NCBI GenBank assembly: GCA_030595835.1
Contig: JAUVLG010000013.1
Coordinates: forward strand, 1-45,378
DNA length: 45,378 bases
Reading direction: 5' to 3'
DNA from: Candidatus Eiseniibacteriota bacterium
GTDB lineage: Bacteria > Joyebacterota > Joyebacteria > Joyebacterales > Joyebacteraceae
Part shown: piece after piece, positions 3,130 through 38,936 of the stretch
Layout: each line of letters starts with the position of its first letter
Position numbering within the stretch: the stretch's first letter is position 1
Translations under genes and position numbers: made by a program
The notes under the pieces: generated by a model
Told to the model about the DNA's origin: nothing
Databases searched by the model: none
What the model saw: the letters and a program-made list of their open reading frames with translations, nothing else

Positions 3130-4521
3130 TCAGCTCTCTATCTGCGGAGGAACAACTTCCTCCCAGCCGGCGACAATGTACGTGCCCGTGTACGGGAAGT
3201 AGGGCGGGGGCATCGTGAACAGTCTCGGGTCGTAATGAAAATCCCTCAGGTACCCTGAACTCACGACGCCCTCCCTGTACTCGGCGATGTGGATCGCGTA
3301 GTCCACGACCATGCCGCCCCACACTATGAGGTCACCTCGCACGCCGCCATGCTGGTAGTCCTCGGCCTCGATGTTCTTCTGAAGCGCCATCAGAACACCG
3401 TGAATCTCGCAGTCGTTGTCGTTCGCGGAGTTGCGCTCGATTATGATGTCGCCGTCAGGGTGACCGGCCGCGACCAGCCCCAGGACATCGTCGCAGCCAG
3501 GATTCGGTCCGCTGCCCGGAGAGGAATCGAAGTAGAGGATGTCGTCGGTGATGATGATGTCACCGTCGACGCCTATCGTCAGTTCCCCGTCCACCACGCC
3601 CGAGATCTCGATGGGCGCGTCGAACCACACTGCTCCGTTCGACACAGAAAGGTCGATGGTCGCCGGTGCACCGACCATCTGCCCGGTCTCCTTGGTCTCC
3701 CTGTACCAGATGTAACCGGCGGACGGCTTGCCCAGCTCAACGGTGTAGTATCTCTTGTTCGGCAACACGGGGGCGAGATGACCGCCGGGCGCCAGCGCCT
3801 CCGCCCTCAGCGTGGCCCGTATGCACGTCTGCGACGGGAGCTCGAGCTGTTCCACGTTCAGTTCGTAGCCACGTTCAAAGGTCGGGTTGCTGCCGGCAGT
3901 GAGGGTGATCCCCCCACCCGCACGCACCAGGTTTCCGAACCAGGGGTCACCGTCAATCATGATGCTGCCGTTGATGTGCACGGGGCCCTCGAAGCGCTCA
4001 CCGGTGCGGAACCACGAGTAGCCTCCGCCGGCGCTCTCGATGAACCACTGGTACCTCGCGAACGTCTCAGCCACCATGGTCGACTTCACCTGCCGCACGA
4101 CGCCATCGACCTCTCCGGTCGATACAACGTCGTAGGCACCGATCCAGCCGCCTCCGCTCGCGTCATTCACCACCGTCGCGGTGTATGTTCCCCCACCGAG
4201 CCTCTGGTCCGCGAAGGCCCTACCGACCGGGTTCGCCCCGGGATCGACCGTCGCAAGCTCCCCCAGCCAGCCGCGCGTGCGCTCGAGACCGCCCTCAGCG
4301 ACATAGAATGCACGAGCATCGTCGACCGCGTAGTCGACGATGTCGCTCTCCGAGTAACCCAGAATGAAGATGGCCATTCCCACCAGCAGCACCGCCGTGG
4401 TAATCCCCATCACGCCGACCAGCGCGAAGCCGCGATTGCTCCGTGATTCGCTCGGAGTGAGCACCGAGGATCTTGTGCGCTCTCTGTGGCTGCGGCGTCG
4501 CCGCGCTGTGATGTTCAGCAC
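3130..4521 (-). CDS. PilX/GspK-like minor pilin, paralog 1 of 3
   Basis: A large (463 aa) pilin-like exported protein. It has a basic N-terminal leader, then NRGFALVGVMGITTAVLL, a class III signal followed by a hydrophobic helix; processing is predicted between Gly31 and Phe32. Glu at +5 is missing, as in GspK-type tip pseudopilins. The PilX-type block AFYVAEGGLERTRGWL follows. The large ectodomain carries FRTGERFEGPVHING and IDGDPWFG, resembling DUF4900-type regions, a conserved cysteine pair (about 343 and 371) and the C-terminal motif MPPPYFPYTG...WEEVVPP. I chose GTG at 4521 because GGAGG inside the end of the upstream gene lies 9 nt away; it starts 4 nt after that gene's stop, so translation is probably coupled. 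Role (tip initiator, adhesin or structural subunit) is inference. Confidence 0.78.
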   Translation of the reverse strand: MLNITARRRRSHRERTRSSVLTPSESRSNRGFALVGVMGITTAVLLVGMAIFILGYSESDIVDYAVDDARAFYVAEGGLERTRGWLGELATVDPGANPVGRAFADQRLGGGTYTATVVNDASGGGWIGAYDVVSTGEVDGVVRQVKSTMVAETFARYQWFIESAGGGYSWFRTGERFEGPVHINGSIMIDGDPWFGNLVRAGGGITLTAGSNPTFERGYELNVEQLELPSQTCIRATLRAEALAPGGHLAPVLPNKRYYTVELGKPSAGYIWYRETKETGQMVGAPATIDLSVSNGAVWFDAPIEISGVVDGELTIGVDGDIIITDDILYFDSSPGSGPNPGCDDVLGLVAAGHPDGDIIIERNSANDNDCEIHGVLMALQKNIEAEDYQHGGVRGDLIVWGGMVVDYAIHIAEYREGVVSSGYLRDFHYDPRLFTMPPPYFPYTGTYIVAGWEEVVPPQIES

Positions 4522-4525
4522 TTCA

Positions 4526-5887
4526 CTACACCTCCGGAGGAACAACTTCCTCCCAACTGATGATCAGATATCTTCCCGTCAAAGGGAAGAACGGCGGGGG
4601 CATCGTCAGCATCCTGGAGTCCCAGTTGTAGTCTCGCACGTACCCCGAGAGCAGATTGCCGTCGTTGTCGTACTGCCCCAGATGAATGCTGTAGTCTGCG
4701 ATAAGCCCGCCGTGCATTTCCATCACTCCCCGAGGAGAATGGTGCTGATAATCTTCGGCCTTTATGCTCTTCTCCAGCGCCATCGCGACGCCGTAAAACA
4801 TGCAGTCGTTGTAGTTCGGAAACACGTACGCAATTACTATGTCGCCGTCGGCTATGAGCCCCAGCACATCGTCGCAGTCGGGCGGCGGTGTGCTGCCCGG
4901 CGGAACGCCGTCGTACAGGACGTCATCGATTATCTCTATGTTCCCCTCGACCCCGATGGTCACCTGACCATCGAGAGTCCCCCATATCCGAATGGGCTCT
5001 GCGCTCCAGATGGCGCCGTTCAGTGTCGAGAGGTCCTCCAGCTCCCACGGTGACGTTACATACACCCCCCCGACCTTCCCGTAGCTCTGCCAGCCGAGGA
5101 GACCGGGGCCGAAGTGGTCGAGTTCGATGAGGTACTTGGCTTCCTTCCCAACCAGCGCCGGGAGCGGAAGGCCGCCCGACATCGCCGCGGGCTTGATCGT
5201 GTCGGTCACGTAGCTGTCGTCCGGAAGCGGGATGTTCGCGACGTGCAACTCGTATCCCATCTCGAATACGGGGTTGCTCCCCGCCTTCTCCGTCAAACCA
5301 CCTCCGGCCGTGACCGGACCGCCGAACCACGGGTCACCGTCGATCTGGAGGTTGTGGTTCACGTGCACGGGCCCCTCGAACCTCTCGCCCGTCCTGAACC
5401 ACACCCACCCGGCCTTCTCGACGAAAACCTGGTATCTGGCGAAGGTCTCCGCAACCATCGCCGCACGCACCTGGCGCACGACGTTGTCCACGTAGCCGGT
5501 CGAAACGACCCAGTAGGCACCCGGCCAGCTACCGCCGCTGACGTCGCTGGTCACCTCCACCGTGTAGGTCCCGCCGCCCAGGAGCTGGTCCTCGAACTTC
5601 TTCCCCAGCGGGTCTCCCGTCGCATCGTCCGAGTGGAACTCGCCCAGCCACCCGCGCATCCGCTCCAGTCCACCCTCGGCGATGTAGAACGCCCGACTGT
5701 CGTCGACACTGTGCTCGACGATGTCACCCTCGGAATGCCCGAGGATAAAGATGGCCACGCCTATCAGAAGGACGGCCGCGACGATCGCCAGGACCGGTAC
5801 GAGCGCGGAACCCCTGCGACGCGTGCCCTTCCCGCGGCGCGGCTCCGTGCATTCGTTGTCCGATGATGTCCTCGTCCGCCTGTTCAA
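4526..5887 (-). CDS. PilX/GspK-like minor pilin, paralog 2 of 3
   Basis: Second tandem paralog, 453 aa, with the same architecture: basic leader, RRRGSALVPVLAIVAAVLL (predicted cleavage Gly26/Ser27, no Glu at +5), the block AFYIAEGGLERMRGWL, then FRTGERFEGPVHVNHN, IDGDPWFG, a cysteine pair at 338 and 362, and the terminal MPPPFFPLTG...WEEVVPP. It is the most divergent in the middle: the stretch between the cysteines is four residues shorter than in the flanking copies. The start is TTG at 5885-5887 with GGGAGAGGG 8 nt upstream; it begins 28 nt after paralog 3. Exported, with the N-terminal helix expected in the inner membrane before assembly. No function is established for this copy. Confidence 0.77.
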   Translation of the reverse strand: MNRRTRTSSDNECTEPRRGKGTRRRGSALVPVLAIVAAVLLIGVAIFILGHSEGDIVEHSVDDSRAFYIAEGGLERMRGWLGEFHSDDATGDPLGKKFEDQLLGGGTYTVEVTSDVSGGSWPGAYWVVSTGYVDNVVRQVRAAMVAETFARYQVFVEKAGWVWFRTGERFEGPVHVNHNLQIDGDPWFGGPVTAGGGLTEKAGSNPVFEMGYELHVANIPLPDDSYVTDTIKPAAMSGGLPLPALVGKEAKYLIELDHFGPGLLGWQSYGKVGGVYVTSPWELEDLSTLNGAIWSAEPIRIWGTLDGQVTIGVEGNIEIIDDVLYDGVPPGSTPPPDCDDVLGLIADGDIVIAYVFPNYNDCMFYGVAMALEKSIKAEDYQHHSPRGVMEMHGGLIADYSIHLGQYDNDGNLLSGYVRDYNWDSRMLTMPPPFFPLTGRYLIISWEEVVPPEV

Positions 5888-5915
5888 GACAGATTCCCTC
5901 TCCCTGAGATCTGAC

Positions 5916-7310
5916 CTACGACGGCATCACTACCGGCACAACCTCTTCCCACATCTCAACGGAGAAGCTCCCCGCGAACGGGAAGAACGGTGGCGGAAGC
6001 GTCGCCACGCGCGGGTCGAAGTGATAGTCCCTGCAATAACCCGAGATGACCACGCCGTTGCTGTACTGCCCCAGGTGGATGGCGTAGTCCGCGAGTATGC
6101 CGCCGTAAATGATGAAATCACCGCGAACCGCATAACGCATGTAGTCCTCGGCCTCGACGGTCTTCTGAAGAGCCATCATAACGCCGTGGACCTCACAATC
6201 GTCCTGGTTCGGAGTCGTGTAGTCGATGATGATATCGCCCTTCGGATGCCCGGCGGCGATAAGCCCGAGTATGTCGTCGCAATCGGGATCCGGCCCGTTC
6301 CCCGGAGACGACCCCGCGTAAAGGATGTCGTCCCTGATGTGTATGGTGCCGTCCACGCCGATCGTCACCTCACCGTCGAGCGTCCCTGAGATGTGAATGT
6401 CCTCCTCGGACCACACTGCCCCGTTGAGGCTCGAGATATCCACATAGCCGCCGCAGCCGTTGGTGCTGCCGTCCTCGTTGTATCCCTGCCATTCCATCTC
6501 GCCGACGGAAGGCTCGCCCAGCTCTATCTTGTAGTAGGTTTTGTTCCCCAGGGCAGGCAGAACCAACCCGCCCAGTTGCTGGGCCGCCGCCTTCAGCGTG
6601 GAGAACACATAGGCCCGGGTCGGCAGACTGACTGGATCCACGTGGAGTTCATAGCCCCTCACGAAGGTCGGGTTGCTGCCTGCCGTCATGTTCAGATCTC
6701 CGGCGGCCCGGACCTCGCCCCCGAACCAGGGGTCACCATCGATCTTGAGGTCGCCGTTGACGTGTATCGGCCCCTCGAACCGCTCGCCCGTCCGGAACCA
6801 GGAGTAACCGCCGCCACCGCTCTCGATGAACCACGAGTACATCGCGAACGTCTCGGCCACCACGGTCGCCTTCACCTGCCTGACGACACCATCCTTGTCG
6901 CCGGTCGAAACGACCACGTAGGCGTCGAGCCAGCTCCCGCCGCTCGCGTCCTCCTTCACCAACACGTCGTAGTCCCCACCGCCCGGCAGCTGCCCGGAGA
7001 AGGTCCTCCCGATCGGGTCGGCGCTCGGGTCGTCGAGCTCCAGCGCCGCGAGGTAGCTCCGTACACGCTCGAGCCCGCCCTCTGCGATGTAGAACGCCCT
7101 GCTGTCATCGACGGCGTACTCGACCACGTCTCCCTCGGCATGCCCAAGAATGAAAATGGCCACTCCCACGAGCAGGACCGCAGTGATGATGCCCATCACC
7201 CCGACCAGCGCAGACCCGCGCACCGATAGTGCGTACGGACCCACGGAGAGAACACGCCGCCTCGCCACTCCCCCGGCACGCGTCTTCAGAAGTCCCCAGT
7301 ATGTAGACAT
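5916..7310 (-). CDS. PilX/GspK-like minor pilin, paralog 3 of 3 (first in the operon)
   Basis: First gene of the pilus cluster, 464 aa. The leader is followed by VRGSALVGVMGIITAVLL (predicted cleavage Gly32/Ser33), then AFYIAEGGLERVRSYL, FRTGERFEGPIHVNGD, IDGDPWFG, cysteines at 344 and 372, and LPPPFFPFAG...WEEVVP at the C-terminus. In the middle and C-terminal regions it resembles paralog 1 more than paralog 2 (for example GLIAAGHPKGDIII against GLVAAGHPDGDIII), so the three may have arisen in two duplication steps. It carries extra cysteines (NGCGGYVD and GYCRDY). ATG at 7308-7310 has GGAGG 5 nt upstream. The 270 nt before it hold the only non-coding gap large enough for a promoter for the whole cluster. 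Confidence 0.77.
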   Translation of the reverse strand: MSTYWGLLKTRAGGVARRRVLSVGPYALSVRGSALVGVMGIITAVLLVGVAIFILGHAEGDVVEYAVDDSRAFYIAEGGLERVRSYLAALELDDPSADPIGRTFSGQLPGGGDYDVLVKEDASGGSWLDAYVVVSTGDKDGVVRQVKATVVAETFAMYSWFIESGGGGYSWFRTGERFEGPIHVNGDLKIDGDPWFGGEVRAAGDLNMTAGSNPTFVRGYELHVDPVSLPTRAYVFSTLKAAAQQLGGLVLPALGNKTYYKIELGEPSVGEMEWQGYNEDGSTNGCGGYVDISSLNGAVWSEEDIHISGTLDGEVTIGVDGTIHIRDDILYAGSSPGNGPDPDCDDILGLIAAGHPKGDIIIDYTTPNQDDCEVHGVMMALQKTVEAEDYMRYAVRGDFIIYGGILADYAIHLGQYSNGVVISGYCRDYHFDPRVATLPPPFFPFAGSFSVEMWEEVVPVVMPS

Positions 7311-26548: not shown

Positions 26549-27910
26549 CTACCGGTTCTCGAGTTCCGCCTTCTTCCTCAGGAACTCGATGTCCTCCCCT
26601 TCGTCCGATCTCACGGGCATCGGGTACGGGTAGTAGATGCCAGTCATCTGCGCGAACCAGAACCTGTCACCCGAACTCTGCCCGCTCGACATCTGTCCGA
26701 CGAGGTAGTAGGTGTACGTTCCCGAGCCGGTCACTTCGTGGACGCTGTGAACACTGAAGGTTCTTTCGATCTCGGAGACGGACGGCCACGAGGAGGGAAT
26801 CTCCTCGTCAATCCTGTCGTACGACGTGCCCAGGCTGGTCGGGGTTGTCCCATGGGCCAGCTGGATGTTGTCCATCGTGCCGCTCGTGTGGTTGATGTGC
26901 ACGCGCACGTTGGAGTTCACCACGATGTACCCCGGACCCGGCACGGTTAGTGTGACCTGGCAGTCGTCGTACTGCGTGGGGCTGCTGCCGATGCCCGTCG
27001 TCGAGCCCTCGTTGTGCGTGTCGATGATGTTCGGCGGACCCCACTCCGCGTTGCCCCACTCGTCGGCGCACCGCAGGACGTAGCCCTCGACCGGGTTCCG
27101 TGTCATCCAGATACCCGAGCAGGTGAGGGTGCCCGCGGCAGCGATGGAGTGCTCAACCTGTAGCGACCGGCCCTTGATGATACCCTGCACCAGCATACTG
27201 TCGCTGACGGTCACCGAGCCGTCGAACACGCCGGCGTAGCCGGAGCCGTTCGCTACGCCCCTGATGGCTGGCCCCGTGCCGCTGTGCCAGCCGAGAACTG
27301 CGGTGCCAGGCCCATTGTGCATCCCATAGAGCGAGGCCGCCGTGCTGCCGGCGTTGTTGATGATGAAGTATCCGCAAACGTTGGGGCCGGTGTTCGTGAT
27401 CTGGAATGCGTGGCCGCTGGTCCCGAGGGTCCCCGAATACGGCAGGTCGAGACCGTTGTCCGCGCCGAGCGACTGGAATGCCGACGGCACGCTCGCGAGC
27501 TTGAGCCTTGGAGTGAGCATCTCACTGTCGATCGTCAGTTGCAGGTAGTACGGGGGCGCGTCGAACGCCGGAAGTCCACCCAAGACCGAGCCAAGCTCGA
27601 TATTGAACCAACCATCCATAATGACCGTGGCCACATGCGTCTCCGGACCCCAGACGGTCGCGCCGCCAAACTCGGCGTCGTACATCCTCGCCGTGACCGT
27701 ATAGGTGGCGTTGATGGGCTCACTGGTGCCCGCGTCCGCCACAAATCCCTGGAACCAGATGGTCTCCTGTATGTCTCTCGACGGATCCCCGTCCCCAAAC
27801 ATGGCTCCCTCGCCGAGTTCCATCGACCGTGCTCCTGCGGTCCCTGCAAGACCCAGAGTCAGAACAAGAACACCAGACATCACCACACTGACAGCAGTCT
27901 TCGTTGACAT
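26549..27910 (-). CDS. Secreted multidomain protein with beta-rich repeats
   Basis: 453 residues with an N-terminal signal peptide (hydrophobic VVMSGVLVLTLGLAGTAGA). After it comes a module of about 110 residues (FQGFVADAGTSEPINATYTV to LTPRLKLASVPSAFQS) recognisable from many secreted proteins of uncultured bacteria by its FQG...Y.VT...YD..FGG..VWGPE and PRLKLASVP ending. Next is a Gly/Asn-rich beta-helix-like part (GTAVLGWHSGTGPAIRGVANG and AGVFDGSVTV), then a C-terminal domain with TVPGPGYIVVNSNVRVHINH. ATG at 27910 has GGAGG 8 nt upstream. It follows 56 nt after a sorting-domain protein. No enzyme motif is visible; surface or tail-fibre-like structural role is inference. Confidence 0.75.
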   Translation of the reverse strand: MSTKTAVSVVMSGVLVLTLGLAGTAGARSMELGEGAMFGDGDPSRDIQETIWFQGFVADAGTSEPINATYTVTARMYDAEFGGATVWGPETHVATVIMDGWFNIELGSVLGGLPAFDAPPYYLQLTIDSEMLTPRLKLASVPSAFQSLGADNGLDLPYSGTLGTSGHAFQITNTGPNVCGYFIINNAGSTAASLYGMHNGPGTAVLGWHSGTGPAIRGVANGSGYAGVFDGSVTVSDSMLVQGIIKGRSLQVEHSIAAAGTLTCSGIWMTRNPVEGYVLRCADEWGNAEWGPPNIIDTHNEGSTTGIGSSPTQYDDCQVTLTVPGPGYIVVNSNVRVHINHTSGTMDNIQLAHGTTPTSLGTSYDRIDEEIPSSWPSVSEIERTFSVHSVHEVTGSGTYTYYLVGQMSSGQSSGDRFWFAQMTGIYYPYPMPVRSDEGEDIEFLRKKAELENR

Positions 27911-27966: not shown

Positions 27967-28764
27967 CTATCTCAGGTAGACCAGCCTGCCTGTCTCTCTC
28001 ACTCCTGCTGCCTCGAGCGCGATGAAATAGACGCCCGATGCCACACGCTGACCGCGGTCGTTCGTGCCGTCCCACGTAACACTGTGGCGACCCGGGCGCG
28101 CGACTTCCGTGTTGAGTGCCGTCACGACGCGGCCGGCGATGTCGTAGATCCTGAGACTGATGCCCCGCGAAGCCGAGGCGACGTCCAGCTGGATAACCGT
28201 GCCGTCGCTGAACGGGTTCGGGTTCGCGTTGTACAACTTCGTGGCTAGCGTGCCGTCCGTCCTGAGCATCACGGTCTCGCCTACAACGTCCTCGCTGCCG
28301 TCGCCGAGGACACCGCGGAGCTCGTACCAGAACGACGAGCCAGGCCATACCGTCGTGTCCTCGTAGACGCCGGGAGAGAACGGTGGCAATCTTGCCTCGT
28401 TCAGTCTCTCAAACGGACCATCCTCTGCCCAGGCCCTGTAGATGTTGAAGCTCGAGATCCCTCCGAACGATTCCACGGTCCACCTGAGAGTCACGATGAG
28501 CGGCTCGGTCTCCGTGGCCACGAATGCTCCCTCAACCGGAGTGACGCTGCAACCCCACAGCGAGAACGAGGCGCTCTCGGCGCTGCCGACGAAGGAACCT
28601 CCAAGTCTGGAAACCATCTCGAAGTTCGCGGATGTGCTGTGCGAACTACCGTCGGCTGGCGCGGCCGCGGTCGTCGACCACGTCCGAAGCTCAAAGCCGG
28701 CTCCAGACGCAACGGCGGCAGCAAGAAGCGCGAGCAGTACGCAGATGACGCACTTCACCTTCAT
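27967..28764 (-). CDS. Secreted protein with FlgD/T9SS-type C-terminal sorting domain
   Basis: 265 residues. Signal peptide VICVLLALLAAAVASGAG at the N-terminus. A first part (about 25-75) has the S-T-SANFEMVSRLGGSFVGSAESASFSLWGCS pattern common in secreted proteins with such tails. A fibronectin-type or Ig-like segment follows (TLRWTVESFGGISSFNIYRA to FWYELRGVL). The C-terminus (about 185-265) is a FlgD-Ig/T9SS type A-like domain: LYNANPNPFSDGTVI, ISLRIYDIAGRVV, GRHSVTWDGTNDRGQ, VASGVYFIAL. ATG at 28764 has GGGGGA 4 nt upstream. The gene leads a two-gene unit behind a promoter at 28837-28866. No catalytic residues are seen. The tail suggests export by a type IX-like route, but no T9SS genes are in the window. 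Confidence 0.85.
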   Translation of the reverse strand: MKVKCVICVLLALLAAAVASGAGFELRTWSTTAAAPADGSSHSTSANFEMVSRLGGSFVGSAESASFSLWGCSVTPVEGAFVATETEPLIVTLRWTVESFGGISSFNIYRAWAEDGPFERLNEARLPPFSPGVYEDTTVWPGSSFWYELRGVLGDGSEDVVGETVMLRTDGTLATKLYNANPNPFSDGTVIQLDVASASRGISLRIYDIAGRVVTALNTEVARPGRHSVTWDGTNDRGQRVASGVYFIALEAAGVRETGRLVYLR

Positions 28765-28935: not shown

Positions 28936-28966
28936 CGGTGTGTGGTGCCGCGCGACCGACACACCG
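28936..28966 (+). other. Hairpin upstream of the UbiA-TPR gene
   Basis: Perfect 8-bp arms CGGTGTGT (28936-28943) and ACACACCG (28959-28966), 15-bp loop. It lies in the divergent gap 28765-29039, about 75 nt before the chosen start of the UbiA-TPR gene. I found no convincing plus-strand -35/-10 pair beside it. It could be a leader hairpin or an operator. Confidence 0.3.
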
Positions 28967-29039
28967 GCCCCAGGGTCGAGCGGGTTCAGCCACGAACATG
29001 CTGCCACGTCAACATGCTGCAGGGTTCTGGAGCACCGGA

Positions 29040-31544
29040 GTGAAGAGAGATCTGATCACAGTGATCGAGGGTGCTGAGCGCTCTCCCCTGCCGTGGGGCT
29101 ACGTGGCCGCGACGTTCCTGGCACTGGTGCTCGCGCGCAACCTGCTCGAGGGCGCGCTCGGTCCAAACGGCGCAATCGGGTTCGTCTACTTCTCCTCCCC
29201 GTCGGCACTCATGGTGCTTGACCACTTCGTCCTGTTCTATCTGAGCCTCTTCCTCTCGTTCGCGCTGGTCCTGTCCACCCTCACACGGGAACGCATAGGC
29301 CGTGTGATGAGGGTGATGACGCCCGCCTGGATTCTTCTTCTGATTCCTCCCGTGCTCGACTATATCCTGACCGGCGGCGAGGGCATGGCAATCACGTACG
29401 TGCTCGAGCTGCGACCGGTGGTACTGCGGTTCTTCGACCCCAGAGTGAGCTTCGAGACCATATCCCCGGGACAGCGCGTGGAGATCCTCGGAGCCTGCCT
29501 GCTCGCGGCAACCTACGTCAGGCTGAAGACAAGGAACTGGGCGCGGACCGTCTCTGGCTTCATCGCCGTCTACCTCGTGCTCGCACTGCACGGCGTCCTG
29601 CCCAGCCTCCTCGCCAGGGCATCGTGGGCGCTGACGCGCGCCGCCTCCGCCTCCGCTGAACTCGCGTACCTCACCGCGTTCAAGTCGGGAGGTCTGGTTG
29701 CTGACGAGAGCCGAAAGCTCGCGCTCGTCTTCTTCCTGACCACGGTCGCGCTGGGCTGGACCGCCTTCAGACGCCACTCGCCGGACAGGGAGAGGGCGAT
29801 GCGGCGGAATGTGCGCCCGCTCCGGTCCCTTCACTACCTGGGGCTAACCACCTTCGGGATCGCGTTCGGCTGGGCGCTCTTCTCGCGGTACGGCGTCGAG
29901 TTTGCGGGAGCAGGCGACGTCCTCGGGGTACTCGCCACATGCATCGCGACGTTCTTCGCCTTCCAGGCGTCGGTCGCGATCAACGATCTCTTCGATGAGG
30001 AGGGCGATCGTATCTCGGAAGAGGCACGGCCGCTCGTGTCCGGCGCTCTCGAACGGCGGGACCTCGTGGGTCAGGCGGTCGTCTTTTCGCTGGCGGCGCT
30101 CTTGCTCGCGCTCAATGTCAAGTACTCGACGTTCCTGTTCATGGTGCTGACGCTCATCGTCTCGTTTGTCTATTCGGCGCCGCCCGTCCGACTCAAGCGT
30201 TTCCCGATCATCGCGAGTCTCTCGCTCGGTGTCGTGTCGCTCCTCGCGTGCCTGGTCGGGTTCTCCGTCTTTGCGGAGGAGCGGGCCATGGCGCTCTTCC
30301 CCACCTCCCTCGCGTGGGTCCTCGTGCTGTCGTTCGGGCTCGGATTCGTCGCGAAGGACCTCAAGGACATCGACGGCGACAGGGCGACGGGCGTGTGGAC
30401 GCTGCCCGTGCTGCTCGGTCCAGCCGCAGGTAAGGCGGCGGTCGCGTTGCTCGTCTTCCTGGGCTATCTGTCGGTCGCACTGCTCCTGCCCTACCCGATG
30501 CTCAAGGCGCCAGCAGTAGTGTTGGGACTTGCCAGCGCGGCAACGGTCCTGGTGTGGCGCAGAAAGCATCTCGCCGAGCTGCTGCTCGCCGTCTGCCTGC
30601 TGTTCACCGTCGTCGTGGCACTCTCGGTGCTGTTTGGCATCGACTCGCTGCTGGAGATCGCCGGCCCGGAGTCCCACGGCGTGCGCGAGGCCAGGGCGGC
30701 CGAGTTCAGGGCAGGTCGCGCCGAGGCCCGACACAACTGGGTGAGCGCGTCGTCCGGTTTCACCGAAGCCGCGCGGGTCTTCCGGGACGACCCCGACGTG
30801 CAGCTCCGCGCGGGCGCCACGCTCTTCGAGCAGGAACGATACGCCGACGCGCTGCCCTACCTTGAGCATGCGGTCGACCTCGACGGGTCGTCTCCCATCG
30901 CGCTCGAGTATCTGGCCAAGACGGAATCCAAGCTGGGCCGCCTCGACTCGGCGGAGTGGCTCATGCATGAGGCCATCAGGCAGGGCGTAAGGCCGGGGGT
31001 CTTCTATTCGGTGCTCGGCGAGCACTGCATGGGGACCAGCGGCCCCGAATCCGCGGCGCGCGCGTTCCGACGCTCGCTTGTCCTGGGACGGCCGGATATC
31101 CCAGCGCGGCTGCGGCTGGCGGACGCGCTCCTGGCCACGGGCCACAGGGATGAGGCCCGGGCGGAACTCAAGACGGCGGTGACGCGGCGACCGTCGTCGC
31201 CCGCTGCACACGATGCTCTGGGGAGGTTCCTGGCTGCCACGGGGAACGCGGACGGTGCGGTCGTTGCGCTGCGGCAGGCCGTCGAACTTGACGACGAGGA
31301 GTCCATCTACTGGAACAACCTGGGCGCGGCACTGCGGATGACCGGACGCCACGGTGAATCACTGGACGCCATCGACGAAGCTACCCGTCTCGACCCTCGC
31401 GCATCGGAGCCCTACTACAACCGTGGCCTCACGCTCGAGGCGACCGGCCGTACGAACGAAGCGAGGAGACAGTATCTCCTCGCTCTGGAACTCGACCCCA
31501 TGAACCTGCCGGCCAGGTCGGCGCTGGGCCGGTCGAGCGAATGA
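29040..31544 (+). CDS. UbiA-type prenyltransferase fused to a TPR domain
   Basis: 834 residues. The N-terminal 240 residues form an unassigned block of about six hydrophobic helices. Then comes a polytopic UbiA-like domain (about 260-545): first Asp-rich motif NDLFDEEGD at 315-323 followed by RISEEARPLVSGALERRDL, and second Asp motif DLKDIDGDRATGVWTLPVLL at about 440-459. These match prenyl-diphosphate and magnesium binding in UbiA enzymes. Residues 566-834 are about seven or eight tetratricopeptide repeats (for example YADALPYLEHAVDLD, WNNLGAALRMTGRHGESLDA, YNRGLTLEATGRTNEARRQY). The chosen start is GTG at 29040 with GGAG 7 nt upstream; longer frames (ATG at 28998, GTG at 28938) lack support. 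The membrane-plus-TPR fusion is not a common UbiA form. Prenyl acceptor unknown. Confidence 0.8.
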   Translation: MKRDLITVIEGAERSPLPWGYVAATFLALVLARNLLEGALGPNGAIGFVYFSSPSALMVLDHFVLFYLSLFLSFALVLSTLTRERIGRVMRVMTPAWILLLIPPVLDYILTGGEGMAITYVLELRPVVLRFFDPRVSFETISPGQRVEILGACLLAATYVRLKTRNWARTVSGFIAVYLVLALHGVLPSLLARASWALTRAASASAELAYLTAFKSGGLVADESRKLALVFFLTTVALGWTAFRRHSPDRERAMRRNVRPLRSLHYLGLTTFGIAFGWALFSRYGVEFAGAGDVLGVLATCIATFFAFQASVAINDLFDEEGDRISEEARPLVSGALERRDLVGQAVVFSLAALLLALNVKYSTFLFMVLTLIVSFVYSAPPVRLKRFPIIASLSLGVVSLLACLVGFSVFAEERAMALFPTSLAWVLVLSFGLGFVAKDLKDIDGDRATGVWTLPVLLGPAAGKAAVALLVFLGYLSVALLLPYPMLKAPAVVLGLASAATVLVWRRKHLAELLLAVCLLFTVVVALSVLFGIDSLLEIAGPESHGVREARAAEFRAGRAEARHNWVSASSGFTEAARVFRDDPDVQLRAGATLFEQERYADALPYLEHAVDLDGSSPIALEYLAKTESKLGRLDSAEWLMHEAIRQGVRPGVFYSVLGEHCMGTSGPESAARAFRRSLVLGRPDIPARLRLADALLATGHRDEARAELKTAVTRRPSSPAAHDALGRFLAATGNADGAVVALRQAVELDDEESIYWNNLGAALRMTGRHGESLDAIDEATRLDPRASEPYYNRGLTLEATGRTNEARRQYLLALELDPMNLPARSALGRSSE

Positions 31545-31572: not shown

Positions 31573-32433
31573 TCAGAAGCCCGCCCGCTCCTGAACGACG
31601 ACGGCCCCCATCTCACACCCGATGTCCCGCGCGATGACCGGGCACTTGACCTTGAGCACGAAGAATATCCGGCCGGGCGCCTGGCTCAGGGTCTCGTAAT
31701 TGCCCTGTCCCTTCGCGATGACAATGCCCGCACGCAGGAAGCGCTCGCGGAACTCCGGGGAGCAGTCGTCGAGGATCGTCCCCGGGGCGTCGGACCCGTT
31801 CTCGATGACGGTAACGAGGTCGGTCATACCCACCTCCACCGCGTCACGCATGGTGGCGTCGTTGATGATGGGAGCGCCCCTGACGGCGAAGGTCACCTTG
31901 TCCGTGTCCATCTCCTCGATCAGCACCCTGTCGAAGACGATCTCGCCAGCGTTGTCCCCAACGTAGAGGATGTCGTCCGCCGAATCGACGGCGCGTCTCA
32001 ACGCGTCGAGCGCTCCGTCTTCCAGTGGCCACGCGAGGCTCTCAGAGATGGACCGCTCCACGCCCTCATCGTCGATGTCCGACGTGACCCCGAAATCTAT
32101 GATGTTGCCCGCGACGGCCAGACGAACAGCGGTACCAAACGGGTCGTCGGACTCAGCGACCATGCTCTTCAGCCGCTCGTACAGAGAGAGCGCCAGCGCG
32201 TTGAAACGGTCCTTGACCTCGCGGTAGGGGTCATCCACACCCGTCGCTTCTCTGACGACCCTGTGGATCACCTGCCCCATCGACGGCGGCGTGTCGTCCA
32301 TATCCATCTCGGAGACGGCTTCCGCCACCGCCCGAAGCACGCGGGCGTGCGCCTCGGTATCGTCGCTCGCCATTCGAGCGGCGCCAAGCGCCTGTTTCAG
32401 AAAGCAGGGAACGCAGTCCAGGAATGTCTTCAC
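31573..32433 (-). CDS. DUF89 / ARMT1-like damage-control phosphatase
   Basis: 286 residues of the DUF89 family, metal-dependent phosphatases proposed to hydrolyse damaged or misphosphorylated metabolites such as sugar phosphates. Hallmarks: N-terminal CVPC, GNIIDFGV, the metal and phosphate site ILYVGDNAGEIVFDRVLIEE, IINDATMRDAVEVG, VIAKGQGNYETLSQAP and LKVKCPVIARDIG. Stand-alone bacterial or archaeal size, with the CxxC subfamily form. It is the last gene of the operon starting at 38870, 39 nt after the PHP gene. Substrate is unknown. It converges on the UbiA-TPR gene with only 28 nt between stops and no clear terminator. Confidence 0.9.
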   Translation of the reverse strand: MKTFLDCVPCFLKQALGAARMASDDTEAHARVLRAVAEAVSEMDMDDTPPSMGQVIHRVVREATGVDDPYREVKDRFNALALSLYERLKSMVAESDDPFGTAVRLAVAGNIIDFGVTSDIDDEGVERSISESLAWPLEDGALDALRRAVDSADDILYVGDNAGEIVFDRVLIEEMDTDKVTFAVRGAPIINDATMRDAVEVGMTDLVTVIENGSDAPGTILDDCSPEFRERFLRAGIVIAKGQGNYETLSQAPGRIFFVLKVKCPVIARDIGCEMGAVVVQERAGF

Positions 32434-32472
32434 GTTACCTCGGGGGAACCGCGGGCGCGGCCGTCCTGCCCG

Positions 32473-33402
32473 CTAGGGTCGCGCCGCCTTCAACGCCTTC
32501 ACGAGCGCGTATCTCGCATCGACCTCCCCGACCTCGATCTGGGGTTTCGTGTCGCCGTGGAAGTCGGTGCCACCTGTCTTGAGCATGCCATGCTTGCTTG
32601 CCAGCGAGGCGTAGTGCCCCACGAGCTCGCCGAGTTCCGCCTTCGAGATGAGCGGCTCCCCTTTGAAATAGGGACGGTTCTTGTCGTACGTGTAGTAGAC
32701 CTCAAGTCCCTTCACGCCGGCGCCGGCGCACGTGGCGATGATCTCGTCGACGATGGGGTCTATCATGCTGCCGCCCTTGGCGAACGTCGTGTTGTAGGCC
32801 CCAGGGTGAGCGAGCACGGGCACGCCGCCCGCGCGCTCGATAAGTTCAACGCACTCCTCGAGCTCTAGGCTGAAGCTCTTCGTCACGTGCCACTCGCCAC
32901 CGTAGGAGGTCTTGTCGAAGAACTCCTGAGACGGGAAGTCCGGGTAGTAACGATGCAGCACCTTCCAGATGTGAGGTCTCCGCACCGTATCGCCCGCCGC
33001 CACGTCGAGTACCTCGTCCGCCTCTATCGGAAGCCCGTTCTCCGCAAGTACGGCGATCTGCTTGATGAGCTTCCCGTTCTTCGCGTCCTGAAGCCGCTGA
33101 AGCACGTCCTCGAGTTCATCGAAGTCCGGGTCAACAAAATACCCCAGGATGTCTATCTCGATCAGGTGCCTCTCGGGGTCGTGCGCGATGCCTATCTCCA
33201 CGCCCGGGATGACCTCGACGCCGTACTTCTCCCCCGCCGCAAGTGCCTCGCGGACGGAACCGGTGGAATCGTGGTCTGTGATGGCGATGGCGGCGAGCCC
33301 GAGCGACTGCGCCTTGCGCACGAGCGTCTCCGCGGTCTCGGAGCCGTCGGACGCGATGGTGTGCATGTGCAGGTCAACCATGGAACCGTCTGAGATGGCC
33401 AA
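32473..33402 (-). CDS. PHP-domain metal-dependent phosphoesterase
   Basis: 309-residue phosphoesterase with the PHP metal ligands in order: DLHMHTIASDGS, AIAITDHDSTGSV, VIPGVEIGIAHD, PVLAHPGAYNT and GGTDFHGDTKP at the C-terminus. Closest in layout to the TrpH/YciV-type PHP enzymes (5'-3' exonuclease or nucleotide phosphatase); an insertion of about 80 residues (HLIEIDILGYFVDPDFDELE to HRYYPDFPSQEF) precedes the later ligands, as in TrpH. I chose TTG at 33402 because GGAGG (33408-33412) is 5 nt upstream and right after the stop of the preceding gene; ATG at 33381 would give the more usual MVDLHMHT start but has no ribosome site at proper distance. Substrate is not defined. Confidence 0.88.
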   Translation of the reverse strand: MAISDGSMVDLHMHTIASDGSETAETLVRKAQSLGLAAIAITDHDSTGSVREALAAGEKYGVEVIPGVEIGIAHDPERHLIEIDILGYFVDPDFDELEDVLQRLQDAKNGKLIKQIAVLAENGLPIEADEVLDVAAGDTVRRPHIWKVLHRYYPDFPSQEFFDKTSYGGEWHVTKSFSLELEECVELIERAGGVPVLAHPGAYNTTFAKGGSMIDPIVDEIIATCAGAGVKGLEVYYTYDKNRPYFKGEPLISKAELGELVGHYASLASKHGMLKTGGTDFHGDTKPQIEVGEVDARYALVKALKAARP

Positions 33403-33415
33403 ACCGTCCTCCCCG

Positions 33416-34246
33416 CTAGACCTCAATGCCGAAGACACCCTTCAGCGCGAAGCCGGCTGCGACCGAGATGACAAAGAACGCAAGAAGCCAGTTGATGGTG
33501 AGCCCGAGGAACCTGAGCTCGCGGTGCGGGTACGTGACCTGGATCGACTCGATGATCGAATCTGAAGGAACGGGCGGTTCGGCCGGATAGAGGAACGCGT
33601 TCCACGAGTTGGCGCGCGCCTTGACGGCGCCGACCTTGCCCAGCTTCCGCTCGGGGCCGACGTCCAGCGACTTCTGAACCGTCCCCGCGGCCGTCACCAG
33701 CGCCAGCTGATGGTGTCCGGACTGTTCCGCCATGATTTCCCAGTTCACCTCGTTCTTCGAGTCGATGCGAAGCGCAGGCGACACGACCCGGACGCCCTCT
33801 GCCGCGACGAGGTCAAGCGAGGTCTGGGACGGGGCCGTTCCCTCTTTGAGCTTCACCGAGACCACGGCCGTGTCCCCGGGCGCGAGAGGCTCGTTCGCGT
33901 AGCGGATGCCGAGCTGCACCATGATAACGAGCACGGGCAGAAACAGGAACACGAGCGGGCGCAGCGAATGACGCAGGTACTGCAGGTTGCTCCTGATCAC
34001 GCTCCCGATGGCCGAGAACATCACAACGGTGTCATTGCGGAAGATCCACATCTCCATGATGTAGGCCTTGAGCTTGTCCTTTGCCTCGGCGATCTTCTGC
34101 TGGTTCGACGTCTTCCCGAATATCAGAAGCATGACGACGCCGGTCACGACGGACACGACCGTCAGCCCCACCCACGGGTGGAGACCGGCGAACGGTGTCA
34201 GGATGGCGTCAAACGCCCTGGTTATCGCTCTTAGAATCGGCCACAT
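33416..34246 (-). CDS. Three-helix membrane protein, Oxa1/EMC3-like layout (uncertain)
   Basis: 276 residues. Membrane segments: TM1 about 25-43 (VGLTVVSVVTGVVMLLIFG), TM2 about 96-117 (RPLVFLFLPVLVIMVQLGIRYA), TM3 about 252-271 (NWLLAFFVISVAAGFALKG). Between TM1 and TM2 is a Lys/Gln-rich, probably coiled-coil stretch (QQKIAEAKDKLKAYIMEMWIF). The region from about 120 to 245 between TM2 and TM3 is a beta-rich soluble domain (TAVVSVKLKEG, LGKVGAVKARANSWN). TM followed by a cytoplasmic coil and a pair of TMs recalls the Oxa1/YidC/EMC3 insertase superfamily, but I cannot confirm homology. It starts 1 nt after the 64-aa gene and is followed by the PHP gene, so is tightly coupled. I do not know its function. 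Confidence 0.6.
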   Translation of the reverse strand: MWPILRAITRAFDAILTPFAGLHPWVGLTVVSVVTGVVMLLIFGKTSNQQKIAEAKDKLKAYIMEMWIFRNDTVVMFSAIGSVIRSNLQYLRHSLRPLVFLFLPVLVIMVQLGIRYANEPLAPGDTAVVSVKLKEGTAPSQTSLDLVAAEGVRVVSPALRIDSKNEVNWEIMAEQSGHHQLALVTAAGTVQKSLDVGPERKLGKVGAVKARANSWNAFLYPAEPPVPSDSIIESIQVTYPHRELRFLGLTINWLLAFFVISVAAGFALKGVFGIEV

Positions 34247-34527: not shown

Positions 34528-36693
34528 CTACTCGAACACGGACGTCCCTATCATCCAGCTACGCTTCGCGATGCCGAACTCGGCCAGCAGAGTCGGCGCC
34601 ATATCGTAGAGCGACGGGGCTTCGTGCGTGATCGGCTTGTTGGTAAACAACACACCCGGCACGTGGCGGTAGTCCGCACAGTGGTCCCCGCTCCATTTGT
34701 CCAGGTTGTCGCTGACGAGTTCCCCTGGTATCTGGCCCGTCGCCGTCTTGTCCGAACCGCGGTAGCCCCAGCCGTACCCGACGACGATATCGGGAGCGGT
34801 GCTCGTGTACGGCCCGTGGTACCACTCGGTCGCCTTGTAGGCCTTCACGACCATCTGCTGGTCCGTCTTCGGATCGCGCACCAGTTCGAGCTTCGCGGCG
34901 ACCTCATCGATGAGTTCAGTGGCCTCGCGCCCCGGTTGGACGATGCCCTGTCCCTCCCGGTTCGCCGTGTTGACGTAGAGCGCGTTGATACCGAGCCCAT
35001 AGACCGTCGTCTGCGACCAGTCGACTCCGAGCAGCCACTCAACGTGCTCGGGGCGCACTCCGGGCTTGAGAACGAGATACCCCTCGTCGTAGAGCCAGCG
35101 GTTCAGATGGAACTGCCGGTAGTAGGGTGCGAACCCGTGGTCGGACAGCACGATCAAGGTCGTGTTCTCGTCCAGCGAGCGCATGACCTCGCCGAGCACG
35201 CCGTCGAACTTCACGTAGAGATTTTCGAGGAAGTCAGAGAACTCTGCGTCTTCCTCGGGGTTGTAGGCCGGGTGCCCGACGTCCATGCAACGCCACATCA
35301 TGTGCGTCGACTGATCCAGCGAGCCGAAGTAGAAGTAGAGAAGCCCCTCCTCGAATTCCGACAGCTCGTACCTGAAGCACTCGAGCCGCTCGTCGAACAC
35401 GATCGTCGACTGCTTGGTGAAGATCGCGTTGTCGAAGATGCCGTGCTCAAGCGCCTTCGTGTCCTCGGGCATGTTCTGGGTGTAGAAGTACCCGACGGCA
35501 TCGACCAGCTCGGCCCCGTACTCGGGCGGGTCCGTGATGGGCAGCACCTGATTGGCCGGGTTGATCTGGACCGGCGTGATGTAGAGCTCGAACTCGGGGT
35601 GCGCGGACTTCAGATAGAAGCGCGCCAGCCCGCTGACGGTCACGAGGTTCGGGACCATCACGAATTCGACCTCGACCCACTCGCTGAATTCGCCCTCGGT
35701 GAGAAGGACCTCGGCATCGCCGATGTCCACGCGGGCGACCGGGTTCGCAGGATCGACGTAGACCTCGAAATCGATACCCACCTTCTTCTCACTGTAGGAA
35801 ATGGTCGCGCCCTGTCTTTCCTCTATCTTCTCGTAATCCTTGAAGTCGTTCGGCGGCCCGTAGAGCGTCGCGTGCACGACTCCCGCCTCGACCCTGACCG
35901 GGTAGACATAGCCGCCGGAGAGGTCATCCGAACCGGGCCAAGGATCGGTGGTGTAGAAAGAGAACGTCCCGTACGTCCCGAGGATGTCCGGCGTGCCCAT
36001 GCCTGACATGCTCCGCACGAGTCCGCCGGCGCTCGTCACCGGCGGGAAGTTCGACGGGATCTTGAAGATGGTGCACGGGACGTCGGCCGCCTCAAGCACC
36101 TGCCAGAACGCGACGCCCTTTCTCAGGTTCAGGGTCGCGCCCCCGGCCAGCGGGAACACGTAGTCGGTGAACGGCATGGCGAACTGGTTCCTGACCGGGA
36201 TCCCCAGCACCCGCGCCTTCTCGGGCGCCGGCTCGACCTTTGAGGTCGAAAGATAAGGCAGGTAGGTATCGCGGTTGCGGTGGACGAAGTCGAAGATGCC
36301 GTGGCCGCCAGGATCCGCGCCCGTGATGAAGTTCGACCACGCCACGGGACTCTGCGGCGGGATACTCGACAGGAGCGAGCTCATGCCGCCCTCGTTTGCC
36401 AGTGCCCGGAAATGCGGCAGCTTGCCCTCGTCCATGAGCCGATTGGTAATGAGCCAGTCCATTCCGTCGATCCCCAGGACCAGCACGCGCTTCTCGGTGT
36501 CGGCCCCTCCGCTCTCTCGAAGCTCATTCGCGACGTAGCCGAGCGACGCGAGCGCCGCTCTGTCCTCGTCGGCCAGTTCCGGCTCCGGCGTATCGGCCGT
36601 GCAGCCGGGAAGAACCAGCACGGCCACGAACACCGCCAGCGCCAGGGGAACCGGAGCGGCCCGGGTGATCATGTGTCTTTGCCTCTGGCGCAT
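34528..36693 (-). CDS. Lipoprotein alkaline-phosphatase-superfamily enzyme
   Basis: 721 residues, COG3379-type (type I phosphodiesterase/nucleotide pyrophosphatase-like). A signal peptide with lipobox VLVLPGC places a lipidated Cys at residue 31, so the enzyme is membrane-anchored outside the cytoplasm. Catalytic core: LVLGIDGMDWLITNRLMDEG (metal Asp76), the nucleophile region SIPPQSPVAWSNFITG (Ser115 is the candidate), GSLDQSTHMMWRCMD, LIVLSDHGFAPYYRQFHLN and WSGDHCADYRHVPGVLFTNK. It shares this layout with the next upstream gene. ATG at 36693 has AGAGGA 8 nt upstream; GTG at 36714 is possible. Substrate (phosphodiester, phosphoglycolipid or phosphonate) cannot be read from the sequence. Confidence 0.85.
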   Translation of the reverse strand: MRQRQRHMITRAAPVPLALAVFVAVLVLPGCTADTPEPELADEDRAALASLGYVANELRESGGADTEKRVLVLGIDGMDWLITNRLMDEGKLPHFRALANEGGMSSLLSSIPPQSPVAWSNFITGADPGGHGIFDFVHRNRDTYLPYLSTSKVEPAPEKARVLGIPVRNQFAMPFTDYVFPLAGGATLNLRKGVAFWQVLEAADVPCTIFKIPSNFPPVTSAGGLVRSMSGMGTPDILGTYGTFSFYTTDPWPGSDDLSGGYVYPVRVEAGVVHATLYGPPNDFKDYEKIEERQGATISYSEKKVGIDFEVYVDPANPVARVDIGDAEVLLTEGEFSEWVEVEFVMVPNLVTVSGLARFYLKSAHPEFELYITPVQINPANQVLPITDPPEYGAELVDAVGYFYTQNMPEDTKALEHGIFDNAIFTKQSTIVFDERLECFRYELSEFEEGLLYFYFGSLDQSTHMMWRCMDVGHPAYNPEEDAEFSDFLENLYVKFDGVLGEVMRSLDENTTLIVLSDHGFAPYYRQFHLNRWLYDEGYLVLKPGVRPEHVEWLLGVDWSQTTVYGLGINALYVNTANREGQGIVQPGREATELIDEVAAKLELVRDPKTDQQMVVKAYKATEWYHGPYTSTAPDIVVGYGWGYRGSDKTATGQIPGELVSDNLDKWSGDHCADYRHVPGVLFTNKPITHEAPSLYDMAPTLLAEFGIAKRSWMIGTSVFE

Positions 36694-36722
36694 ACTAGCT
36701 ATCCTCTCGCGCACGCATCTGA

Positions 36723-38870
<2,148 letters not shown>

Positions 38871-38907
38871 TGCTCTCCTGACATCTCTCCTCGTGCACGC
38901 ACTACCT

Positions 38908-38936
38908 ATAATAGACAGAGACCGCCCCGCTTTCAA
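38908..38936 (-). promoter_or_regulatory. Strong sigma-70 promoter for the phosphatase operon
   Basis: Minus-strand TTGAAA (38931-38936), a 17-bp spacer, TATTAT (38908-38913; five of six bases match consensus). Start near 38901, leader about 31 nt before the ATG at 38870. One of the best promoter matches in the window; no operator is obvious. Confidence 0.7.

Follow-up and report, generated by a model that had tools for sequence, protein, structure and literature searches.

A conserved, unclassified membrane domain joined to a UbiA-type prenyltransferase and a TPR arm

The window analysed here is a stretch of 45,378 nucleotides from the Candidatus Eiseniibacteriota bacterium assembly GCA_030595835.1 (contig JAUVLG010000013.1, positions 1 to 45,378 of the forward strand). 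Positions 28938-31544 of its plus strand form an uninterrupted open frame that, read from a GTG at 29040, encodes a protein of 834 residues, and an ortholog alignment shows that this start agrees with those of the orthologs. The initial annotation described the product as a fusion of a UbiA protein with an additional membrane block and with TPRs, and the open frame, Pfam, a structural model and the orthologs all bear this out. The gene and its parts are as follows.

29040..31544, plus strand: N-block–UbiA–TPR gene, GTG start, 834 aa, with a longer start possible at 28938 (open frame, ortholog alignment)
29040..29807, plus strand: N-block (residues 1-256), of no known family, with six transmembrane helices predicted at 19-246
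29817..30635, plus strand: UbiA domain with nine helices predicted at 260-532 and a Pfam match at 284-509
29982..30008, plus strand: first Asp motif, residues 315-323 (NDLFDEEGD)
30357..30380, plus strand: second Asp motif, residues 440-447 (DLKDIDGD)
30669..31538, plus strand: TPR arm (residues 544-833) of about eight helix pairs, placed by prediction outside the cytoplasmic membrane

Pfam places UbiA (PF01040) at residues 284-509 (E 1.6e-30, 106.6 bits against a cut-off of 34.2); several TPR models match within residues 592-830, TPR_2 with 88.6 bits against a cut-off of 27. A full-length AlphaFold2 model of the 834 residues, made from 18 aligned sequences (mean pLDDT 87.3, pTM 0.81), contains six upstream helices (19-246), nine in the UbiA part (260-532) and TPR pairs thereafter (544-833). 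Nine transmembrane helices in the catalytic domain are a feature of the UbiA superfamily, and the predicted helices at 260-532 match it. Both Asp motifs are intact in the window protein (N315-D316-x2-D319-x3-D323 and D440-x2-D443-x3-D447), as first claimed and now confirmed in the ortholog alignment. We also ran the check for a frameshift or join that the initial annotation had set beforehand, and found no join. In a search of 41 genomes the protein was found in the window's family, with many copies as a single long frame at 46-78% identity (12 of them aligned to the window protein), and G+C by codon position is similar across the N-block, UbiA and TPR parts. The three-part protein is therefore genuine; the alternative that it is a frameshift or an assembly join of two or three genes, which nothing in the window supports, is refuted by open, colinear ortholog frames in many assemblies and in other phyla, and we give it practically no credence. 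Only genome G016 has its window-type gene (L029) and its paralog (L057) each split across frames, by sequencing error or decay.

We compared a profile of 22 UbiA parts with the PDB and obtained matches to digeranylgeranylglyceryl phosphate (DGGGP) synthase (E 1e-27), chlorophyll synthase (1.2e-22), the prenyltransferase 4tq3 (6.6e-21) and 4od4 (8.8e-16), followed by UBIAD1 and decaprenyl-phosphate phosphoribosyltransferase. Every curated NCBIfam enzyme cut-off was missed by far, the best score being 86.9 of 269 bits. The models for DGGGP synthase (PRK12882, 63.8 of 296 bits; PRK12883, 62.6 of 353), ChlG (PRK07566, 85.2 of 313), MenA (PRK06080 models, 28.6 of 555 and 27 of 277) and EboC (33.2 of 250) all stayed below their cut-offs, as did UbiA-proteo, whose 40.3 of 275.45 bits is lower than the scores of the DGGGP and chlorophyll types. 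Judging from its sequence, the protein is by motif and family a UbiA protein on the lipid and pigment side rather than the quinone side. DGGGP synthase (PDB 6m31) and chlorophyll synthase (9sau, 9sas) share the UbiA domain and both Asp motifs with it, but their chains of 283-295 residues carry neither an N-block nor TPRs. EboC is likewise UbiA-like and, according to excerpts of its description (PMC6282210), belongs to a system that carries a precursor into the periplasm; these excerpts place EboC near the DGGGP synthases, discuss TPR-like helices in the ebo cluster and, in contrast to the window protein, report no fused N-block. We found no description of a UbiA-TPR fusion, or of UbiA with an extra domain, in the open-licence PMC literature.

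The block upstream of UbiA, first described as about 240 residues with several helices, does hold six helices; what has changed is its standing, since it proved to be a conserved family-wide domain that never occurred in our sample without at least a UbiA-like remnant. Within the family (Ca. Effluviviacota), we counted the window-type protein in 18 of 20 genomes, several copies being cut by contig ends; it is absent from G003 and G015 (57% complete). A scan of named genomes placed it in Ca. Eisenbacteria and Ca. Effluviviaceae assemblies. Beyond the family, a 22-member profile detected the N-block in 15 of 366 genomes of a broad bacterial sample, in 7 of the 17 genomes of the phylum of L118, in 8 of 87 from an archaeal phylum (that of a Diapherotrites archaeon) and in one of 80 from the phylum of a Krumholzibacteriia genome, namely that genome itself. 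Wherever the frame could be read through, the N-block was followed by a UbiA-type region, recognized by Pfam in some cases and by alignment in the rest. This pair continues into a TPR-type arm, or a C-terminal arm of similar length, in L115, L117 and L185-L193; by Pfam, L190 has no TPR and L192 has one that stays under the threshold. Armless N-block–UbiA proteins are found in L149-L167 (as far as these are complete), L194, L195, L197 and L198, whereas L196 and L199 keep the N-block and only a short UbiA-like remnant, judged by eye where Pfam gave no match. The archaeal members have no TPRs. The window protein is best explained as a member of an old membrane-protein family consisting of N-block plus UbiA.

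Two further loci were considered alongside these. At L168:135-1681, a separate 278-aa UbiA-like protein lies immediately next to a membrane protein of 235 aa that has an R-N-x-x-E motif; we tried the pair as a split version of the fusion, and an hhalign probability of 1.7% left the shorter protein unsupported as an N-block. In the window's own genome, a further UbiA-family frame (L061:7256-8704; G000:C224) has matches that begin near residue 185, and its upstream part gave no N-block match.

We could not match the N-block to any described domain and leave it unclassified. Among 13 members no Pfam family in the matches reported scored above its cut-off (there were three stray sub-threshold families only), and no PDB sequence matched up to E 10. 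Because TPR and other repeat matches swamped a full-length fold search, the N-block was modelled alone (pLDDT 80.6, pTM 0.83). This model gave no significant fold match: the best Foldseek E value was 1.4, and the best Z of 4.5 may reflect only a common helix arrangement. Several of the top rows were ABC-2-type exporter domains, none of them significant. An alignment of 72 proteins, which leaves out fragments (family proteins below 700 aa, including the L024, L025, L036-L039 and L057 pieces, and the cut L168 N-block), showed strong conservation of several positions among rows with a letter: R33 in 70/70, E37 in 68/70, H62 in 64/70 (replaced by S in four), P104 in 70/71 and D107 in 69/71. Y120, G144, E148, Y159 and P188 also stand out over the 72 proteins, and R146 is kept in 55 only. 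It is from these conserved polar residues only that we infer enzymatic chemistry in the N-block.

The N-block invites comparison with the Lipocone domains (VanZ, PTDSS, YfiM-1), which, in the sections of PMC12419801 available, have outer-leaflet polar pockets and act on phospho- or polyisoprenoid-lipid head groups. The same sections describe a four-helix cone with His (H2), Glu (H3) and Asp (H4) in the pocket, and a YfiM-1 family coupled to a UbiA-like gene with a PHP protein. As far as they go, the likeness is of the works-like kind only: a helical membrane domain with a conserved His and acidic residues on the predicted outer-leaflet side. The N-block differs in having six helices and its polar residues in another order. 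Its H62 is predicted to lie in helix 2, D107 where helix 3 ends and E148 in helix 4; fold searches gave no significant match. An assignment as VanZ/Lipocone was rejected: hhalign returned a probability of 0.2% for 25 VanZ sequences, VanZ being the sole Lipocone family compared, against 3.3% for a reversed control.

Loop charges suggest how the protein lies in the membrane. Counts of K+R, 31 on inner against 11 on outer loops, fit a predicted N-in topology in which the UbiA motifs would face the cytoplasm and the last helix would leave the TPRs outside. The prediction puts R33, E37, H62, D107, R146 and E148 towards the outer side within their helices, and Y120 on a loop facing outward. Thus the polar residues of the N-block and the TPR arm are predicted on the outer side, opposite a cytoplasmic UbiA active site. 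The initial annotation had proposed to predict which face the arm lies on and had cast it as a binding arm that could link prenylation to a protein partner. The arm is there, with partner binding a putative role for it; however, predicted to be extracytoplasmic and opposite the UbiA motifs, it would not simply hold an acceptor at the UbiA site.

A paralog about 30% identical over residues 6-525 is present in 19 of the 20 family genomes, the exception being G018 (73% complete). It has both the N-block and the TPRs, but the first Asp motif is missing in all 18 sequences and the second is mostly gone. The copy in the window's genome lies here.

L040:8603-11128 (G000:C212): paralog with N-block and TPRs, no first Asp motif, adjoining polysaccharide genes

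The paralog adjoins genes of the SLBB/Poly_export, GNVR/Wzz and polysaccharide flippase families, and nearby genes named from their sequence are presumably UDP-sugar dehydrogenase-like and RmlC-like; its surroundings are a polysaccharide locus. Among 17 paralogs the mean pairwise identity is 0.72 in the N-block against 0.49 in the UbiA part, whereas the values for 14 window-type proteins are 0.60 and 0.59 (L029, L034, L056 and L059 excluded). The UbiA part thus seems to have come under weaker constraint after the motif was lost.

In a tree of 70 rows drawn from N-block columns only (L034 and L059 left out as truncated), the Asp motif is missing in 28 rows by a lenient rule that scores it as present with N at 315, D at 319 and D at 440; some rows scored as present, such as L161-L164, carry N at 316 or no D at 323. 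The 23 Asp-less proteins with an arm form one group (99/99), whose members come from the window's family and from f103, f118 and f121, three further families that lie outside it. The window protein belongs to a group of 21 rows (100/99), 20 of them with Asp motif and arm and the last, L116, a fragment at a contig end. The arm itself needs two changes on this tree. Since the Asp-less armed proteins form a single group, we read the motif loss as one event, and the motif was apparently lost once among armed proteins. R33, E37, H62, P104 and D107 persist even where it is gone. Prenylation, the role first suggested, remains compatible with the intact motifs of the window protein, but with a sister clade that has no Asp motif it cannot be the only role of this architecture.

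The genes next to the fusion do not explain its substrate, in agreement with the initial annotation. All of the neighbours listed lie on the minus strand.

26549..27910, minus strand: the other protein on the divergent side, without a Pfam match, in a cluster that recurs beside orthologs
27967..28764, minus strand: divergent neighbour with an FlgD_ig domain (C-terminal sorting-tag type), in the same recurrent cluster
31573..34246, minus strand: convergent side, with an ARMT1-like phosphatase domain protein, a PHP protein and a 276-aa protein, recurrent in part of the family
33416-34246, minus strand: the 276-aa protein, without a Pfam match above cut-off, found next to the fusion in 8 loci
34528..38936, minus strand: tandem pair of type I phosphodiesterase family members (728 and 737 aa) without an equivalog name, seen repeatedly beside orthologs in part of the family

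The 276-aa protein may resemble small Oxa1-like membrane proteins. Elsewhere in the window (3130-7310, minus strand), three consecutive DUF4900 proteins adjoin T2SSE and T2SSF genes.

Neighbours vary between and within lineages. In another part of the family the neighbour is a subtilase with FlgD_ig. Outside the family, L185 adjoins a C25 peptidase, L186 a metallo-beta-lactamase fold protein that carries FlgD_ig, and L192 a TMEM260-like protein; L116 and L189 stand next to subtilases with FlgD_ig (below cut-off for L189). By our own after-the-fact count, which includes partly sub-threshold scores, an immediate neighbour carries FlgD_ig or Por_Secre_tail in 7 of 12 lineages: the window type, the L027/L031-L035 type (the neighbours of L031 and L033 judged from C-terminal letters and cluster, not by scan), L116, L186, L188 (about at the Pfam cut-off), L189 and L192 (both below it). 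We give no weight to the p-values computed for such a count, which took 8 of 12 lineages and a rule drawn up with the data in view. No tag neighbour was seen for L193, a close relative of L192, or for L115, L117, L190 and L191, with one side only visible in L115 and L117. Next to the family paralog, a tag neighbour stands in four loci (L044, L057, L058 and L059) and is further off or unseen elsewhere. FlgD_ig is common in such genomes: matches number 86, at least 150 (from 150 of 178 candidates scored), 121 and 21 in four genomes. We found nothing on FlgD-type sorting in candidate phyla in the open-licence PMC literature.

A PorU-like sortase of type IX secretion is encoded in the window's genome (G000:C172:56018-59356; 524.1 bits against a curated cut-off of 420). 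PorU-like matches occur in 20/20 family genomes (partial matches only in G005 and G006) and, at E 1e-50, in 9/9 TPR-bearing genomes outside the family, so that all 29 genomes with TPR-bearing forms in a sample of 386 have one, a pattern confounded by kinship. Among the 366 genomes outside the family, 12 of 15 with an N-block have a match at E 1e-50 (the exceptions being G033, G370 and G510), compared with 87 of the 351 others (one-sided Fisher 2e-5, ignoring kinship). At the curated cut-off the contrast is weak (5/15 against 53/351, p 0.07, again ignoring kinship). The archaeal genome tested had no PorU and archaeal members lack TPRs, so a link to type IX secretion cannot be general. Together, the sorting-tag neighbours and the co-occurrence with PorU point to a surface role, without amounting to proof. 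Since neighbours often bear C-terminal sorting tags, such a role looks likelier than respiratory quinone synthesis. Of the quinone, lipid or sugar acceptors first considered, quinone now looks less likely, and the UbiA part is nearest to DGGGP and chlorophyll synthase.

Our best reading, which we hold tentatively and at somewhat less than even confidence, is that of a two-faced membrane protein that would prenylate a lipid on the inside and handle a head group or partner on the outside, for cell-surface assembly. This reading builds on the observed architecture, conservation, intact motifs and motif loss in the sister clade and on a predicted topology, and we infer all of its chemistry. The UbiA domain would prenylate an acceptor in the membrane, in a reaction that most resembles prenyl transfer of the ether-lipid or chlorophyll type. 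At the outer leaflet the N-block may bind or act upon a lipid head group that carries phosphate, and the TPRs might dock an extracytoplasmic partner, with the product serving cell-surface protein or polysaccharide assembly. The paralog without the Asp motif would keep the outer-face function only. A bolder form of this proposal, which we regard as quite improbable, is that the N-block is a new outer-leaflet membrane enzyme, that in type IX-like bacteria the fusion makes an isoprenoid anchor or loads it on sorting-tag cargo, and that the Asp-less clade performs the outer-face step for polysaccharides with a lipid made elsewhere.

The protein may instead be a UbiA prenyltransferase of the ordinary kind, acting on a lipid- or pigment-like molecule. 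The N-block would in that case be a passive membrane scaffold that serves dimer contact or binds a partner, and the TPRs would do no more than gather the protein with other envelope proteins. The intact Asp motifs, the nearness of the UbiA part to known lipid and pigment prenyltransferases and the lack of a fold match suggesting an N-block enzyme are all consistent with this account. However, a mere support role leaves unexplained why charged N-block residues are kept in bacteria and archaea and remain after loss of the Asp motif, and we judge it rather unlikely. More doubtful still is a role in the quinone pathway, as a prenyltransferase like DmkA or MenA that has gained regulatory parts and would feed the extracellular electron transfer suggested for this phylum. 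DmkAB genes are reported in Ca. Effluviviacota in the part of PMC11323493 available, but the MenA-type and UbiA-proteo scores given above fall below those of the DGGGP and chlorophyll types, the window's genome has 8 UbiA matches so that other enzymes can serve quinones, and the motif-less sister clade and surface-type neighbours are left unexplained.

Returning to the two-faced membrane protein, the finding is that a protein of a seep bacterium reveals a membrane domain that is conserved, remains unclassified and accompanies UbiA in both bacteria and archaea. In one lineage the enzyme core lost its catalytic motif and the unclassified domain stayed, a pattern suggestive of a step at the membrane's outer face that has yet to be studied. 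If the outer-face role is true, one polypeptide would join isoprenoid lipid chemistry inside the cell to surface assembly outside it, and this would bear on how type IX-like bacteria outside the well-studied groups anchor their cargo.
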